Positions 3,989-9,830 of a stretch of 64,000 bases of DNA are shown here, one piece after another. The stretch's first letter is position 1, and each line of letters begins with the position of its first letter. A program made the position numbers and the translations under genes. The stretch comes from an uncultured Sphingomonadaceae bacterium (GTDB taxonomy: Bacteria; Pseudomonadota; Alphaproteobacteria; Sphingomonadales; Sphingomonadaceae). The notes under the pieces were generated by a model. That model was not told the origin of the DNA, did not search any database, and saw nothing but the letters and a program-made list of their open reading frames with translations. The stretch spans positions 62,001 to 126,000 of the forward strand of contig CANLSQ010000003.1 of NCBI GenBank assembly GCA_947493955.1, written 5' to 3'.

Positions 3989-5847
3989 CTTTTCAGCAAA
4001 TCGAAAAAGGCAGGTGTCTGATGATGCACTCTGGGGCTGACTCCGCTACATTCCAGACATAACGCCATCACATCTTCACGTGCCATCAAACCGCGAGCGG
4101 TCTGTAATGCTTGGGCAAAACTCGCCTTTTGTTGCCGCGCAACCCAACCGACCATGCCAGTGACCGGTTTGGCTCTGGCTTCCCCAAAGGGTGTTCCTCC
4201 AAGCGGAAGCCATTTGAACACGGGTGCCTCCTCAAGATATTTCGCGTGATAGTCGCCTTCCTCAAGCCCGGCGCGTTTCGCTGCTTCGGCGAGCGCTTCT
4301 TTCATCCCGCCAAAACTGTCTACCAGTCCCAGTTGCCGAGCTGTGCCGCCGTCCCAGACGCGGCCCTGACCAATAGTATCAACCTCTGCGTTGGTCTTGC
4401 CGCGCGCCTTTCCTACGAGGCTGAGGAAATCCTCATAGCTATGCTCTACTCCGGATTGCAGGACAGTGTTGAGATCTTCGCTGAAACCGCCAACAAAATC
4501 CGGTTCCCCGGACAGTGGAGTCGTTTGCACGCCATCTGTGGTCACTCCCCATCTGCCCAGCGCCTTCTCAAAACTCGGCAGCACGGCAAAAACACCAATG
4601 GACCCGGTGATCGTGTCCGGTTCGGCCATGATGTGATCGCCTGCCGCGGCAATCCAATAGCCACCGCTGGCCGCGACGTCGCCCATGGAGATAATAATGG
4701 GAATTTCGGCTTTCTTGATATCGGTAAGCGCCAGGCGGATTTCTTCGCTGGCGAAAGCGGAGCCTCCAGGGGAGTTCACCCGCACCACCAATGCTTTTAT
4801 CTGTTTCTCTTCGAGTGCTTTGTAAATCTGTTCGGCAATCCGGCCGCTGGCGGCAATGCCGGGTCCAGCGTTTCCGCTGACAATTTCTCCGGCGACGGTG
4901 ATGACACCAATTGCGTCACCGCTGCTGCCTTCGGGATTGGCGGCGACGAAATCGTCATAGTCAATGCTTTTGAAACTGTCCGGAGACGGCTTTGTGTCTT
5001 CCCCAACTTTTTCAGCAACGTAGCGGCCAAAGGCAACCCGGTCGCCGATTTTGTCGACCAGCTTTTGCTCGACTGCGATCTTAGTATAGTCGCCTCCGGC
5101 GGTCTTGATAAGCGTTGCCGGATCATTGGCATAGGGCTCAATCATGGCTTGTGGGCGCGCCTTTTTTACTTCCGCCAACCAACTGTCCCACAGGACGGAA
5201 TAAAGCGCTGCGGATGCCTCTTTCGCTTCAGGGGACTGGTTGTCGCGCATATAGGGTTCCACCGCGCTCTTATACGTGCCGACACGGTAGATATTGGCGG
5301 TGATGCCCAGCTGATCGATCAGATTTTTGTAGTAAAGCCTGTTACCACCGGGGCCGGCAAAGACAATACCGCCCATCGGGTCCATCCAGATTTCATCAGC
5401 ATGGGCCGCCAGTTGATAACTGTCATCACTGTAGAAATTGGCATAGGCATAAATTGGTTTTTCGGCCAATTTGACCTGCTCAAGTGCCTCGCTTACGGCG
5501 TTGAGGCTGGTTTGTCCGGCGCCCATGAAAGTGCTGAGGTCAAGAACCACGGCTTTCACCCGGTCATCTTCGGCCGCGGCATCAATCGCTCGAACCACAT
5601 CCCGCAACCGATATTCGCGCACGGTATTCTCATTATTCGTGAACATGGCTGTAAAATCCTGCTGTGCAGGTTGTTCGACAATGACACCATTGAAATCGAG
5701 GAGTAGTGCGCCGTCATTAATTGCTGCCACATTGGGCCGTACCGAAAGAGCCGCATAAAGGACAGCGAAGAACAGCAACATTGCGATCAGGACCAAAGCG
5801 TCTTTGATCGCTACCAGAAATTTCCAAGCTGCACGGGCAAACTGCAT
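3961..5847 (-). CDS. sppA: Signal peptide peptidase SppA, long (67K) type
   Basis: Membrane-anchored serine protease of the inner membrane that degrades cleaved signal peptides. An N-terminal transmembrane anchor (about residues 12-35) is followed by two tandem SppA/ClpP-like domains. The catalytic lysine lies in the first domain (RVGTYKSAVEPY) and the catalytic serine in the second (GDVAASGGYW), preceded by the oxyanion-region motif NSPGGS. The length of about 628 residues matches the double-domain enzymes. I place the start at ATG 5847 because a GGAG lies about 10 bases upstream; the frame also allows ATG 5856 and TTG 5865. The 3' end overlaps the TRIC gene tail to tail by 28 bp. Confidence 0.92.
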   Translation of the reverse strand: MQFARAAWKFLVAIKDALVLIAMLLFFAVLYAALSVRPNVAAINDGALLLDFNGVIVEQPAQQDFTAMFTNNENTVREYRLRDVVRAIDAAAEDDRVKAVVLDLSTFMGAGQTSLNAVSEALEQVKLAEKPIYAYANFYSDDSYQLAAHADEIWMDPMGGIVFAGPGGNRLYYKNLIDQLGITANIYRVGTYKSAVEPYMRDNQSPEAKEASAALYSVLWDSWLAEVKKARPQAMIEPYANDPATLIKTAGGDYTKIAVEQKLVDKIGDRVAFGRYVAEKVGEDTKPSPDSFKSIDYDDFVAANPEGSSGDAIGVITVAGEIVSGNAGPGIAASGRIAEQIYKALEEKQIKALVVRVNSPGGSAFASEEIRLALTDIKKAEIPIIISMGDVAASGGYWIAAAGDHIMAEPDTITGSIGVFAVLPSFEKALGRWGVTTDGVQTTPLSGEPDFVGGFSEDLNTVLQSGVEHSYEDFLSLVGKARGKTNAEVDTIGQGRVWDGGTARQLGLVDSFGGMKEALAEAAKRAGLEEGDYHAKYLEEAPVFKWLPLGGTPFGEARAKPVTGMVGWVARQQKASFAQALQTARGLMAREDVMALCLECSGVSPRVHHQTPAFFDLLKSYSLSSAPR

Positions 5848-5866: not shown

Positions 5867-5900
5867 AAAGGCGGCTGATCATCGCTGACCGCCGCCTTTT
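5867..5900 (-). terminator. Hairpin terminator at the end of the bufferin/sigF-nrsF operon
   Basis: Inverted repeat AAAGGCGGC (5867-5875) against GCCGCCTTT (5891-5899). Read on the minus strand, a nine-pair GC-rich stem closes with TTTCTT. It lies 23 bp past the nrsF stop and immediately upstream of the sppA start region, so it probably isolates sppA from the upstream operon. Confidence 0.65.
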
Positions 5901-5922: not shown

Positions 5923-6573
5923 TTACCAGCGGATAAGATGCGGTACAATAAATCTTCCGATCAGAGCACTGACCAGTACCGGCAGGGTGAACCATAATCC
6001 GATATAGTAAATGTCGTTAAACGGGCAGAAAATATTATAAGCAGCCGCTCCCAGAGCGCCGGATGCGATGCCGACCAGCCAGCCAGCGCGTTCCGGAGAG
6101 GTCGGCGCGCCTTGGCGTAACCAGGTGGTCAAACCGCCGCCAATGACCAATGCTGACATCATGCTGACCGTCAGGCAGCGCAGACCTTCAGTGGGTCGCA
6201 ACGCTTCTACTGGCGGCATGTTGATCGCGCTCATGATAGCCGCTGTCAGCGGGAATAGAGCTGCCGTAACCAGTGCCCAAATCCAACCGCGATTAAGATT
6301 GCCAACACCGGGTCGAGCCATATTGGCCGCTGCAAAAGCCGTTGCAATACCAAGCATCAAGAGCACGCCGCTGCGCAGGAAGAACATCTGATGAGCCATG
6401 CCCATCGCCAGATCACCGCGTACGCCTAAAAAGAAGGCGACACTGGAAGAGACGGCCAACATCAGGATCGCTGTCACCGCCATACCGCCTGAGGGTTTCA
6501 GAGTACGGACCGGTGCAAGATCATCGACCAGGTCATCGATCAGGCTATTTGCTACTTCACTCATTTCATTCAC
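5923..6573 (-). CDS. nrsF: NrsF family anti-sigma factor (DUF1109)
   Basis: A 216-residue inner-membrane protein with about six transmembrane helices that, by family knowledge, holds its cognate ECF sigma factor inactive until heavy metal is sensed. Two cysteines in periplasm-facing positions are visible, Cys133 (GLRCL) and Cys183 (NIFCPFND). They match the two conserved cysteines reported as important for Caulobacter NrsF. The start codon overlaps the end of the sigma-factor gene by 8 bp, the normal arrangement for a sigma/anti-sigma pair. The short N-terminal cytoplasmic segment (about residues 1-28) would be the sigma-binding part; that is inference. Confidence 0.9.
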   Translation of the reverse strand: MNEMSEVANSLIDDLVDDLAPVRTLKPSGGMAVTAILMLAVSSSVAFFLGVRGDLAMGMAHQMFFLRSGVLLMLGIATAFAAANMARPGVGNLNRGWIWALVTAALFPLTAAIMSAINMPPVEALRPTEGLRCLTVSMMSALVIGGGLTTWLRQGAPTSPERAGWLVGIASGALGAAAYNIFCPFNDIYYIGLWFTLPVLVSALIGRFIVPHLIRW

Positions 6574-7090
6574 TCTCGATAAGGGCGCTCATTTTTTTGA
6601 GCCCCCGATGGATGTTTACTTTCACCAGTGATTCCGACTGGCCGGTTTTTGCCGCGGCTTCGGCAATGCTTAGTCCCTCAATTTTTACCATGGCGATAAC
6701 ATCGGCCTGTTTATCAGGGATCATTCCCAATAAACGTTCCAAGCTCACCTTGGCGGTTACGTCCTCATCCTGTGGATCGGCAACCAGTTCTTCATTCAGT
6801 TCGCCATGCTCGTGGCGATAGATTTTGCGCAGGCCGTCAATCCAGCGATAACGTCCGATGGCGGCGAGCCAAGGCAAGAACGCTTTGGTAGGATCATAGC
6901 TGGCCCGCTTTTTGTGCAGCGAGATTAGCGTTTCCTGCACCAGGTCATCGACTTCCGCCGGATTGATCTTGCGCGCATAATAGCGCCGCAGCCATTTTTC
7001 GCACTCGGTCAGCAGACTGGCATAGCATTGCTTGTCGCCGCCCTGCGCCTTGACCATTAAATGGCGCAATGTTTCTTCATTGGCGATCAT
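6566..7090 (-). CDS. sigF: ECF RNA polymerase sigma factor, SigF/ECF16-like
   Basis: A 174-residue sigma-70 family factor with region 2 (DDLVQETLISLHKK through PWLAAIGRYRWIDGLRK, about residues 48-95) and region 4 (about 115-168, ending VKVNIHRGLKKM), and nothing else, as in ECF factors. Assignment to the Caulobacter SigF type rests on the overlapping DUF1109/NrsF partner and on the upstream DUF2282-DUF692-DUF2063-DoxX genes, the known SigF targets. It sits 24 bp after doxX on the same strand, so transcription from the operon promoter would give positive autoregulation. Confidence 0.9.
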   Translation of the reverse strand: MIANEETLRHLMVKAQGGDKQCYASLLTECEKWLRRYYARKINPAEVDDLVQETLISLHKKRASYDPTKAFLPWLAAIGRYRWIDGLRKIYRHEHGELNEELVADPQDEDVTAKVSLERLLGMIPDKQADVIAMVKIEGLSIAEAAAKTGQSESLVKVNIHRGLKKMSALIESE

Positions 7091-7114
7091 GACTACTCTC
7101 CCCGGCTTCCCAGC

Positions 7115-7555
7115 TTAGCCCAGTTTCCCGCCGACCAGCTTGTCGAGAGAGAATAGGCCGCCGCCACGCGTAATCAGGACCAGCGCCAAGGCTACCCAGA
7201 TAATATGCACGGACCACCAGGCTTCAGGATAGACGAAAAACTGGATGACCAAGGTCATGACTAGCAGCCCGGCCGCGCCAAAGCGGGTTGCAAGGCCCAA
7301 TACGAGTAGAATCGGGAAGAAATGCTCGGCATAGGTAGCGATCAAACCGGTGATCTCGGGAAAAGGCATGCCATATTCATCACGGAACAGATCGACGGTC
7401 AGTTCTTTCATCGTCAGAAAGCTGCCATCTTCGACCTTTGTGCGGGCAGAGCGCCAGAATATGCCAGCCAGTGCCACGCGGGCAAAGAGGAGCGCGATCG
7501 CTTCTGGAAAAGCGCCGCTTACTAGACCAATTGCTTTTTTAATCAGGTTCATCAT
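7115..7555 (-). CDS. DoxX family membrane protein of the bufferin operon
   Basis: A 146-residue protein with four predicted transmembrane helices, typical of the DoxX superfamily (motifs AIALLFARVALAGIFWRSARTK and ATYAEHFFPILLVLGLATR). DoxX proteins commonly sit beside DUF692/DUF2063/DUF2282 genes, and their role there is not established; quinone-linked redox support or membrane retention of a metal-peptide complex are possibilities. It lies between the bufC-like gene (25 bp upstream) and the sigma factor (24 bp downstream) and must be part of the same transcript. Confidence 0.85.
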   Translation of the reverse strand: MMNLIKKAIGLVSGAFPEAIALLFARVALAGIFWRSARTKVEDGSFLTMKELTVDLFRDEYGMPFPEITGLIATYAEHFFPILLVLGLATRFGAAGLLVMTLVIQFFVYPEAWWSVHIIWVALALVLITRGGGLFSLDKLVGGKLG

Positions 7556-7580
7556 TTCGGTTACCCCGTTAAATCATTCA

Positions 7581-8303
7581 TTATATTCTTATTATCACGC
7601 CGCTTTGGATCAGCTTTATGATCCTCTCCATTGCAGTGTCTTCACCATCCAGTTCGATGGCTGCTGCCAAAAGGTTACCCATTGTTGAAATATTTGCAAT
7701 TTTTTCCGCAATATCGTGTTCTAACTGGGTGAGCGGGTGAAATAGGACTTCAGCTTCTGGGCGCGCGACCATCAGTGCATCAGGCGTGCCATCTCCTAAT
7801 TCTGCCAGCTCCGGCGAAAGTACTCCGGTCAGGTTGACCAACCTCATTGCGGGATGCGAGCCGATCTCAAGGCCGAGAAGGCTTTCTTCATCCAGTGTCG
7901 CAATGTCATTAAGCGCAAGCGGCGCAGCCTCGGCGCTATGGTAGCTTTTGATCCACGCCCATTCTATCCGGGCCAGATCCACTTCGGTTTCGCTGAACCC
8001 CTGTTTTGCGAGAAAATCCCCAAAATCTGCGGCGATACTGTTCATGTCACAGGTCAGGATGTGGTCCTGCTCGATATAGTCTCGAGAAATGGCGTGAAAA
8101 GGCTCATGTCCCATATGCTCGTGCAATTTGGGATAGGCGTTTTCAAGCGCGACGAGCCGTGCATGGGAAACAGTATTGGCATGAGCCTTCAGGCCCAGAA
8201 GCGCGCGATCCGCACTTTCACTGAACAGGTCATCAGGAAAATGGGCCGGGCCTTTTTGCAGGCAGGCGATGAAGCGGGACTGGCCGTCAGCTAGCGAGGG
8301 CAT
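7581..8303 (-). CDS. bufC: BufC-like DUF2063 partner of the MNIO enzyme
   Basis: A DUF2063-family protein of about 240 residues. The N-terminal helical DNA-binding-like domain (about residues 1-95, with the FHAISRDYI stretch) is followed by a second domain carrying the VNLTGVLSPELAEL segment. In MNIO systems such a partner binds the precursor peptide and presents it to the DUF692 oxidase. I choose ATG 8303 (MPSLADGQ), which overlaps the end of bufB by 17 bp; the frame extends to an ATG at 8324. The tight overlap supports translational coupling and a complex with BufB. Confidence 0.88.
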   Translation of the reverse strand: MPSLADGQSRFIACLQKGPAHFPDDLFSESADRALLGLKAHANTVSHARLVALENAYPKLHEHMGHEPFHAISRDYIEQDHILTCDMNSIAADFGDFLAKQGFSETEVDLARIEWAWIKSYHSAEAAPLALNDIATLDEESLLGLEIGSHPAMRLVNLTGVLSPELAELGDGTPDALMVARPEAEVLFHPLTQLEHDIAEKIANISTMGNLLAAAIELDGEDTAMERIIKLIQSGVIIRI

Positions 8304-9216
8304 GCTGTTTATCGTCCAAGACATGGCTGTTCAGCACCGTTTCAACTTTTGAAACTTCTGCCATTAACACGCTATATTCGGGAATATCCGTGTCCCATTC
8401 AATCAATGTGGGCTTGGGCCCAGCGCGTTTGATGAAGCGTTCATACAGCCGCCAGGTGATATTGCTGACAATCGAGCCATGATCGTCGATCAGCAATGGA
8501 CCATCGTCATGCTCTTCGCGTGCATGGCCAGCAAGATGCATTTCCCCGACAATATCCGGATCAATGGCATCTATATAGGCCTCCATATCCAGCCCGACAT
8601 TAGTAGCGGTGACTTCGACATTATTGACATCAAATAGTAGGCCGCAGCCAGACTTTTTGCAAAGGGCCGAGATGAAGTCAGTCTCGCTCATCGCGTCATC
8701 ACGGTAGCTGAGATAGCGCGACGGGTTTTCGACCAATATGGGCCGTTTTAGCCGGTCCTGCACCTTGCTAATCTCTGCGGCGAAATGATTGAGTGCTTCT
8801 TCTGTATAGGGAAGGGGGAGCAGATCGGGATAGCGATCATGGGCGTTACCGCTCCAGCTCAGATGATCGGAAACCATGGCTGGTTGGTAGCGATTACAAA
8901 GATCGGCAATTTTATCGAGATCATATTGGTTCAGACCATCAGCTGAGCCAAGCGAAAGTCCGACACTGTGAAAGCTCAAAGGATAGTCTTCGGCGATGGC
9001 GGTCAGCCAACGATGTAGCGGGCCGCCATCACCGAAGTAATTCTGCGGATGTACCTCGACCCATCCGGGTTTTTTTGATCCGACTTCTTCGGACAATACA
9101 TCATTATAATGTACTGACTTCAAACCTATGCCACCTGATGGAGGGAGGGAGTGAGGCACAGGCGTCTTCATAACGGACAGACCAAAATTTGAGGTTTGAG
9201 TAAAGGTGGCATCCAC
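8287..9216 (-). CDS. bufB: BufB-like MNIO (DUF692) peptide-modifying oxidase
   Basis: Member of the multinuclear non-heme iron-dependent oxidative enzymes, the MbnB superfamily, with a TIM-barrel fold. Candidate iron ligands are all visible: His83 (LSFHSVGLS), His118 (VSDHLSW), Glu163 (LVENPS), Asp196/Asn198 (LFDVNN), Glu225, His227 and His231 (GEMHLAGH), and Glu273 (LIEWDT), numbering from the GTG at 9216. It would convert cysteines of the BufA precursor to thiooxazole-type heterocycles; that chemistry is known for bufferins and inferred here. The frame opens with GTG 9216, but ATG 9171 (MKTPVP) is an equally plausible start and gives a length nearer the family norm. Confidence 0.93.
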   Translation of the reverse strand: MDATFTQTSNFGLSVMKTPVPHSLPPSGGIGLKSVHYNDVLSEEVGSKKPGWVEVHPQNYFGDGGPLHRWLTAIAEDYPLSFHSVGLSLGSADGLNQYDLDKIADLCNRYQPAMVSDHLSWSGNAHDRYPDLLPLPYTEEALNHFAAEISKVQDRLKRPILVENPSRYLSYRDDAMSETDFISALCKKSGCGLLFDVNNVEVTATNVGLDMEAYIDAIDPDIVGEMHLAGHAREEHDDGPLLIDDHGSIVSNITWRLYERFIKRAGPKPTLIEWDTDIPEYSVLMAEVSKVETVLNSHVLDDKQHALAS

Positions 9217-9273
9217 AAAACTTAGCGTAGAATCACGTTTTGCGCCAGAGGCTTGAACGTGATTGAAGGTGGT

Positions 9274-9570
9274 TTAACCTCTCTGCGGTACTGGCTTCTT
9301 GTTGCCTTTTTTCGCGGTCAGCGAACCACCGGCTTTAACACAAGCGCCCTTGGCGGTGTATTTCCAGGCATTGCCCTGATAGTCGGCGGTTGAAGTACCG
9401 GCACAGCTTGTGCCTGGTCCTGCGGCACAATCATTCTTGCCCTTCAGCGCGATGCCGAAACATTTCTCTTTGGCACCAGCCGCAACGGCAGTGGTTGGCG
9501 AAATAGCAATAGTCGCAGCAGCAGCGAGGGCAGCAGCAGCGGCAGTGGCTTTGATCATGGAGTTGGACAT
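9274..9570 (-). CDS. bufA: BufA1-like bufferin precursor (DUF2282), copper-binding RiPP
   Basis: A 98-residue exported peptide precursor. A long Ala-rich Sec signal peptide (residues 1-30, cleavage predicted after TTAVA) precedes a mature part with four cysteines, Cys37 (EKCFG), Cys48 (KNDCA), Cys56 (TSCAG) and Cys77 (KGACVK), and a Lys-rich tail. This four-Cys pattern and the EKC(Y/F)G motif are the DUF2282/bufferin signature; in Caulobacter such peptides are modified by an MNIO enzyme and sequester copper in the periplasm. The start is ATG 9570, preceded by AGAGAGGA. The frame stays open far upstream, but that part would run through the promoter and has no such character. Confidence 0.93.
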
Positions 9571-9634
9571 TTGGTTTTCCTCTCTTGGAGATTGGGTAAT
9601 AGGGGCGAACCTGTCGTGCAGGCTCATCATGTGT

Positions 9635-9660
9635 TTCGGTGGAAGGACCCGGCTGGTTAC
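9635..9660 (-). promoter_or_regulatory. SigF-type ECF promoter of the bufferin operon
   Basis: On the minus strand the motif reads GTAACC (9660-9655), 16 bases, then CGAA (9638-9635). This is an exact fit to the consensus described for Caulobacter SigF-dependent promoters (GTAACC-N16-CGAA). It lies about 65 bp upstream of the bufA start. Since the operon appears to run through sigF and nrsF, this would be an autoregulatory promoter released when NrsF senses metal. Confidence 0.85.
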
Positions 9661-9803: not shown

Positions 9804-9830
9804 TTAGCACTCGACTCAAGGGAGTGCTAA
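9804..9830 (+). promoter_or_regulatory. CIRCE operator (HrcA-binding site) of groESL
   Basis: Perfect inverted repeat TTAGCACTC (9804-9812), nine-base spacer, GAGTGCTAA (9822-9830). This is the canonical CIRCE sequence bound by the heat-shock repressor HrcA. It lies 83 bp before groES, so groESL expression should rise when HrcA is titrated by misfolded proteins. Confidence 0.97.

Follow-up and report, generated by a model that had tools for sequence, protein, structure and literature searches.

The bufferin operon and its sigma switch

The stretch analyzed here (the window, 64,000 nucleotides of the 3.4-Mb genome of an uncultured Sphingomonadaceae bacterium) carries on its minus strand a bufferin gene cluster that continues into genes for an extracytoplasmic function (ECF) sigma factor and an NrsF-family anti-sigma factor. 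The open reading frame (ORF) map places six genes in the order bufA, bufB, bufC, doxX, sigF, and nrsF. These coordinates and the Pfam matches, which lie above the family cut-offs for all six genes, bear out the order given in the original prediction. The genes and two candidate promoters (P1 and P2) are as follows.

9635 to 9660, minus strand: P1, candidate SigF/ECF16-type promoter, exact match to GTAACC-N16-CGAA, ending 64 nucleotides (nt) 5′ of the bufA ATG
9274 to 9570, minus strand: bufA (ATG at 9570), DUF2282 bufferin (Buf1) precursor of 98 amino acids with a Sec-type leader by eye (Pfam PF10048, 77.6 bits)
8287 to 9216, minus strand: bufB, MNIO maturase, starting at GTG 9216 or ATG 9171 (NCBIfam MNIO_BufB, 345.5 bits; cut-off, 310)
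7581 to 8303, minus strand: bufC, DUF2063/PME1 partner protein, whose gene overlaps the bufB 3′ end (Pfam PF09836, 39.9 bits)
7653 to 7678, minus strand: P2, second candidate SigF-type promoter, exact match within the bufC coding sequence, 97 nt 5′ of doxX
7115 to 7555, minus strand: doxX, DoxX-family membrane protein (Pfam PF07681, 60.6 bits)
6566 to 7090, minus strand: sigF, ECF sigma factor (Pfam Sigma70_r2 and r4_2)
5923 to 6564, minus strand: nrsF, NrsF-family membrane anti-sigma factor with Cys130 and Cys180 (Pfam PF06532, 147 bits)

The precursor has the predicted four cysteines, at positions 37, 48, 56, and 77, and the predicted EKC(Y/F)G motif in the form EKCFG. The bufB product also matches Pfam MbnB_TglH_ChrH (score, 319) and is kin of 3bww; twenty His, Asp, Glu, Asn, or Cys positions are conserved in at least 106 of 108 BufB proteins, and the window BufB has all twenty. 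Which of them would bind iron is presumed from MbnB work. The bufC start was set at ATG 8303 (the longest ORF begins at 8324). NrsF contains exactly two cysteines, as predicted, at residues 130 and 180 when numbering starts from the ATG at 6564; these positions are cysteine in 197 and 179 of 198 NrsF proteins, and the gene is the sole NrsF match in the genome.

With a leader-bearing, four-cysteine DUF2282 precursor and the bufABC order comprising MNIO and DUF2063/PME1 genes, the module belongs by its sequence to the known Buf1 type of bufferin cluster. The sigma factor adjoins a PF06532 anti-sigma factor with two conserved cysteines, as ECF16 members do, and was taken as ECF16-like from this partner and from the promoter motif. 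Narrower models fit less well: BufA reached 28.7 bits against the BufA2 cut-off of 60, the doxX product 56.9 bits against the HvfX cut-off of 80, and NrsF 79.4 bits against the cut-off of 300 for the equivalog NF042994, which leaves it in the Pfam family and outside the equivalog; the HvfC cut-off was not reached either. Because these four cut-offs were missed, some of the operon proteins appear to be divergent members of their families.

Layouts and descent

Matches to NrsF were found in 95 of 199 family genomes and 80 of 385 class genomes. We annotated 201 loci, consisting of the window, 80 regions from the family, 40 from outside it, and, from a sigma factor scan that gave 357 loci, the 80 best; the scan favors close kin, and some places were reached twice, so the 201 include duplicates. 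With these duplicates and this bias toward kin, 61 loci had the fused layout of the window. In 22 loci (layout B), sigF-nrsF stood with doxX, divergent from bufABC, and in 16 (layout C), sigF-nrsF preceded bufABC. Eleven loci had sigF-nrsF divergent from bufABC-doxX, which we take to be the Caulobacter order; seven were partial, and 84 had sigF-nrsF without called buf genes. The fused order is not rare, being common among the loci sampled. It was found in none of the 40 regions outside the family; apart from the window, the fused loci came from the family regions and from scan hits whose titles name Sphingomonadales or a lower rank, with one exception titled only Alphaproteobacteria (L278).

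In a BufB tree of 71 rows, the 23 fused rows formed one clade (support, 100/99), which lay on one side with the Caulobacter-like rows, apart from layout B and most of layout C. An NrsF tree of 81 rows placed the B rows inside a set that also held some fused rows, with mixed support. The window sigma factor shares 98 to 100% identity with its counterparts in one Sphingorhabdus and several uncultured Sphingomonadaceae, and 90% with that of Parasphingorhabdus marina, which places the genome among the sphingomonads of this group.

Two SigF-type sites in the operon

P1 and P2 both match the ECF16 consensus tGTAACc-N16-CGAA (PMC3420878) at its ten fixed bases. P1 was evaluated in 45 distinct loci of the 61 fused ones: nine were set aside (three without a called bufA, five missed by a short motif search, and one at the edge of a contig), and seven more were repeats. 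The site was exact in 42 of the 45 and had at most one mismatch in all 45. The original prediction had reported the exact match before bufA, which does stand. As stand-alone evidence, we rejected such a match, since the genome contains 20 exact sites versus 17 for the reversed pattern; spacers of N12 to N14, three controls taken together, gave 16 exact matches versus the 20 for N16. P1 appears credible through its position and conservation, not through exactness alone.

P2 is the second exact site of the window and was absent from the original prediction. After identical bufC tails were collapsed, the 61 fused loci left 54 distinct ones, and 53 of these had an exact sense site in bufC, always in the same reading frame (15/15 among the first 15 operons). 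The remaining locus, L274, has GTAACA, one mismatch, at the homologous place and keeps all four third bases. In L113, the site lies elsewhere in bufC, leaving 52 sites at the homologous place. No bufC gene of the other layouts had an exact site (0/20 in layout B, 0/16 in layout C, and 0/11 in the Caulobacter-like layout; 0/47 overall), and spacers of 10 to 22 other than 16 were found in none of the 54 fused-operon bufC genes. By longest-ORF starts, the distance from the site to doxX ranged from 8 to 198 nt in the fused loci.

We also scanned the 1.9 kb 5′ of nrsF for sites with at most one mismatch. A sense site was present in 54 of 54 fused loci, versus an antisense site in 3 of 54, and the corresponding numbers for loci without buf genes were 64 of 83 and 17. 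Sense sites occurred in 20 of 20 loci of layout B, 11 of 16 of layout C, and 6 of 11 of the Caulobacter-like layout, with antisense sites in 19, 13, and 9, respectively; for these three layouts, the antisense count is an unclean control, as divergent promoters fall within the 1.9-kb stretch.

In three loci from Blastomonas (L241:6522, L246:3285, and L249:6522), the junction of sigF and nrsF bears a third exact SigF-type site, 17 to 78 nt 5′ of nrsF, from which the anti-sigma factor could be made alone.

Nucleotide constraint at the bufC site

The P2 motif is spelled by the codons xGT AAC CTn ... nnC GAA. The first residue at this homologous place varies among Gly, Cys, Arg, and Ser, and yet its codon is xGT in 52 of 52 genes; Glu is preceded by any of eight residues (I, L, T, G, S, V, A, or C), whose codons nonetheless all have C as the third base (52/52). 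The intervening Asn is always AAC (52/52), although AAT makes up 46% of the Asn codons in these genes, and Gly, where present, is spelled GGT, although GGC makes up 46% of the Gly codons. When alignment columns were ranked by third-base conservation, leaving out those dominated by Met or Trp, two motif columns ranked first and second among 184 columns with variable amino acids, and two ranked first and second among 49 conserved columns. The ranking used the 53 rows with the site, a choice that favors the site and omits L274; it was unchanged with 17 representatives.

The fused-operon BufC proteins have a median identity of 40% and a minimum of 28% and form 13 clusters at <50% identity; recent kinship therefore does not explain the site. 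Synonymous shuffling of 15 genes yielded the site in 0.9 to 5.0% of trials per gene, and as the bufC genes share descent, their shuffling and conservation figures are not to be multiplied. At both the consensus positions and the spacing, we thus found nucleotide conservation beyond the need of the protein, as is expected of an embedded promoter. We read the bufC site as a SigF promoter within coding sequence, which would serve as the feedback start of doxX-sigF-nrsF.

A predicted wider SigF regulon

Genes beginning 20 to 60 nt past exact sites in this genome include those for glutathione reductase (gor), an AhpC/TSA redoxin, a DUF1223 protein, MsrB, a PNPOx-type protein, a DUF2147 protein, a VTT/pyridine-nucleotide oxidoreductase, a methyltransferase, and an orphan bufA; msrA lies 212 nt downstream of an exact site. 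Five of the 20 sites (L005, L006, L007, L012, and L013) had no convincing gene start nearby downstream. As a crude ORF rule for scoring positions misses the starts of bufA, msrA, and the VTT-domain gene, we put the weight on conservation among orthologues. Exact sites precede gor, the DUF1223 gene, and msrA in three of three genus genomes examined, and those before the msrB, redoxin, lipoprotein bufA, PNPOx, VTT, and outer-membrane-type orthologues recur in one of the two other genus genomes. Among 30 genomes picked by hand from those searched in the family, in which the NrsF-bearing ones mostly have the fused layout, the DUF1223 gene was present in 7 of 15 with NrsF and 0 of 15 without it (P = 0.006), with an exact site at three of the four loci, out of seven, that could be examined upstream. 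The support that these sites give to a wider regulon is real but moderate.

The orphan bufA (L003:1357-1704), the second DUF2282 gene of the genome, encodes a Buf1-like protein with a lipobox (LSAC) and an EKCFG motif, and its SigF-type site lies 60 nt upstream. Inspection by eye of 3.1 kb around it revealed no MNIO gene, and the lipoprotein would need BufB in trans. Across 19 of 23 genus loci (the other four were missed by the lipobox search), an exact site stood 59 to 61 nt 5′ of the ATG in 14 and a site with at most one mismatch in 15. Lipoprotein-like bufA genes also occur in some fused operons (7 of 64 fused-layout bufA genes with the motif, duplicates included).

Two further observations concern genes at such sites. 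The methyltransferase gene (L023:419-1471), 29 nt past its exact site, had no site-linked relative in two genus genomes; by likeness, we presume it to encode an arsenite methyltransferase. In genus relatives, loci L133 and L138 have exact sites before genes that look lipoprotein-like by eye and whose products are weakly redoxin-like, with 22 and 26% identity to the L009 redoxin.

Comparison with known systems

Caulobacter crescentus has sigF-nrsF in one operon and CC3254-CC3257 in another, and a SigF promoter precedes each of the two (PMC3511200), which supports the original statement that the arrangement differs from the fused one of the window. The gene families, promoter consensus, and two NrsF cysteines are common to the window and to SigF-NrsF, CC3254-CC3257, and CC2907-CC2905, as are SigF promoters, candidate ones in the window, for both the buf and the sigF genes. 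The Caulobacter sigF promoter, however, lies upstream of sigF in its separate operon, whereas in the window, sigF-nrsF ends the buf operon and the presumed promoter lies in bufC. The Caulobacter regulon is small and has an MsrPQ-like pair; the regulon predicted here has msrA, msrB, gor, a redoxin, DUF1223, and a lipoprotein bufferin instead. The Caulobacter sigF promoter is of the GTAACC type and more active on SigF overexpression, and sigF under dichromate was described as "not strongly auto-regulated" (PMC3511200). Under copper, sigF rose with its regulon, and a sigF mutant was copper sensitive (PMC3511200, PMC8224329). By analogy, the window operon may respond to copper; any self-amplification may be anything from slight to marked, given these two Caulobacter results.

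Cupriavidus metallidurans likewise has precursor, MNIO, DUF2063, and DoxX-like genes (gigPABT, induced by copper and gold) beside genes for an ECF sigma factor and a predicted anti-sigma factor (rpoQ-rsqA), but as a divergon in which rpoQ-rsqA is reported to be RpoD dependent, and the available part of that report gives no evidence of RpoQ-driven gig initiation (PMC10304878). The ECF16 pair RpoE7/EcfR7 of Sinorhizobium meliloti accompanies a DUF692-DUF2063 cluster with a GTAAC-type promoter for each unit; it differs in having separate transcription units, and it showed no induction by any of the stressors tried (peroxide, cadmium, and chromate) (PMC6180224). Bradyrhizobium EcfF-OsrA is an autoregulated ECF16 system whose anti-sigma factor needs two cysteines and whose regulon includes methionine sulfoxide reductases, but the available part of that report shows no bufferin operon attached to it and gives a spacer of N14 to N15 (PMC3420878). 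A survey of bufferin and MNIO clusters reports sigma factor and NrsF genes in Buf1 clusters and a strict bufABC order (PMC12452194). In that survey, lipoprotein leaders are assigned to Buf2, in contrast to the Buf1-like DUF2282 lipoprotein encoded by the orphan gene here, and the main text does not contain the word "promoter." Thus, neither the components, nor their grouping into a module, nor the motif is new, and Buf1 clusters with sigma factor and NrsF genes have been reported before. The available portions of the literature surveyed do not describe a SigF promoter inside bufC; the original bufferin report lay outside the survey, so this is no proof of absence.

Gene packing and flanking elements

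In the window, bufB and bufC overlap, and the gaps are 25 nt (bufC-doxX), 24 nt (doxX-sigF), and 1 nt (sigF-nrsF); that between bufA and bufB is 57 or 102 nt depending on the choice of bufB start. By longest-ORF starts, gaps of at most 60 nt were found across the 54 distinct fused loci for bufB-bufC (54), bufC-doxX (52), doxX-sigF (51), and sigF-nrsF (51), and in 40 of 52 fused loci for bufA-bufB. Such tight packing fits one operon. A strong hairpin, given next, plausibly ends the unit ahead of sppA.

5867 to 5899, minus strand: terminator-like hairpin 3′ of nrsF and 5′ of sppA (fold, −29.5 kcal/mol; z = −4.55)

None of 200 shuffles folded as stably as this hairpin, and its T tract is weak. 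Between positions 5700 and 10000, the plus strand has three sigma70-type promoter-like sites and the minus strand none (mean of shuffles, 3.8); short-loop terminator-like sites number six (mean of shuffles, 4.4), and the three of these on the minus strand lie within sigF or nrsF. Between bufA and bufB (9172 to 9280), an inverted repeat of nine pairs (AATCACGTT/AACGTGATT) recurs in several of the closest relatives. We dropped it as an attenuator (z = −1.56; 13 of 200 shuffles equally stable). Upstream of groES-groEL, which is divergent from bufA, positions 9804 to 9830 hold a perfect CIRCE element (TTAGCACTC-N9-GAGTGCTAA). Heat shock and bufferin promoters would therefore share one intergenic region.

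A two-promoter model and its alternatives

We consider it quite probable that this Buf1 operon stands under its own ECF16 sigma/anti-sigma pair through two nested SigF promoters. The gene content, the two sites and their nucleotide-level conservation, and the spread of sites are observed, whereas promoter activity, SigF dependence, the inducing metal, and the peptide chemistry are inferred. Metal or thiol stress in the periplasm would affect NrsF through its two cysteines, releasing SigF. Free SigF would then fire P1, 5′ of bufA, for transcription of the whole operon; P2, at the 3′ end of bufC, for separate transcription of doxX-sigF-nrsF; and single genes elsewhere (msrA, msrB, gor, and those for the redoxin, DUF1223, and the orphan lipoprotein bufferin). 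BufB and BufC would convert the BufA cysteines to thiooxazoles, yielding a periplasmic copper chelator. The switch would thus retain an autoregulated promoter after its placement downstream of the buf genes, and P2 would make the supply of sigma and anti-sigma factors independent of read-through past them. A bufferin operon with its own ECF/NrsF switch, as originally proposed, agrees with the protein families, the gene order, and the conserved promoter. The accompanying idea of a single self-amplifying transcript is incomplete, since the conserved second site inside bufC should give doxX-sigF-nrsF a start of its own. From the sense sites upstream of nrsF, the Caulobacter sigF promoter, and the autoregulation of Bradyrhizobium EcfF, we conclude that a promoter of its own usually stays with the switch and that, in the fused layout, this promoter is the one in bufC.

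Several results weigh against this model or its wider regulon. Besides the genomic count of 20 exact sites versus 17 reversed ones, the genus relative G153 has 18 versus 21 (G089 has 12 versus 6), and the position test was weak, with 12 of 20 sites and 5 of 16 control sites near gene starts by the crude ORF rule. In the hand-picked genomes, the exact gor site was found in 5 of 15 with NrsF and 0 of 15 without, and with one mismatch allowed, in 6 versus 1 (P = 0.08 by Fisher's test). Other sigma factors of the genome could use a similar motif, and the NCBIfam cut-offs for BufA2, NrsF, HvfC, and HvfX were missed. With 13 representatives at <50% identity, one nonmotif conserved column ties with the motif columns in third-base conservation. 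P2 also appears to be one origin maintained, not many, because the fused layout is a single clade by BufB.

Were P1 the only working promoter, the bufC site would be a conserved protein motif (x-N-L...E) that spells the consensus by chance, and N, L, and E are indeed nearly fixed in fused-operon BufC. The fixed third bases under variable residues and the invariant AAC codon argue against this, as does the lack of the peptide motif at the aligned place in the first 24 bufC genes of the other layouts, and we regard such a coincidence as very unlikely. P2 might instead be a real promoter read by another ECF sigma factor, tying SigF-NrsF to a different signal: ECF sigma factors are known to share motifs, and the genome has 16 varied sigma region-4 matches of all kinds. 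However, GTAACC-N16-CGAA is the published ECF16 consensus (PMC3420878), the Caulobacter sigF promoter of the same type is raised by SigF (PMC3511200), P1 and P2 share the motif, and the genome has one NrsF, so this reading is improbable as well.

A plainer account of the same facts sees an ordinary bufferin cluster without regulatory novelty, in which a trivial rearrangement produced the fused order and kept both promoters. Every part comes from known families, Buf1 clusters containing sigma factor and NrsF genes have been published (PMC12452194), and the sigma operons of the group in Caulobacter and S. meliloti have promoters of their own (PMC3511200, PMC6180224). Yet here the retained promoter lies in coding sequence, where it constrains bufC codons over the whole clade sampled, and it is without description in the literature surveyed, as far as the available portions go; we consider the plain account possible but doubtful. 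Returning to the two-promoter model, we lean somewhat toward its broader form, in which the sigF switch of Sphingomonadales became the tail of the operon and its promoter landed in bufC, leaving BufC under a double load as maturase partner and carrier of an ECF16 promoter. The resulting nested two-promoter feedback loop would also command a wider regulon for periplasmic thiol and methionine sulfoxide repair, together with a bufferin that is anchored in the membrane and matured in trans.

Bufferins, a widespread class of peptides that handle copper, were named recently, and their regulation has been studied in few species. Synonymous changes in P2 would leave BufC unaltered, which makes the proposed embedded promoter easy to test. 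If the model is true, a promoter kept in coding sequence across a deep clade would offer a test case of regulation constraining protein sequence; sigma and anti-sigma factors that can be made without the buf genes would change the feedback behavior; and bufferins would be tied to methionine sulfoxide and glutathione repair in one predicted regulon.

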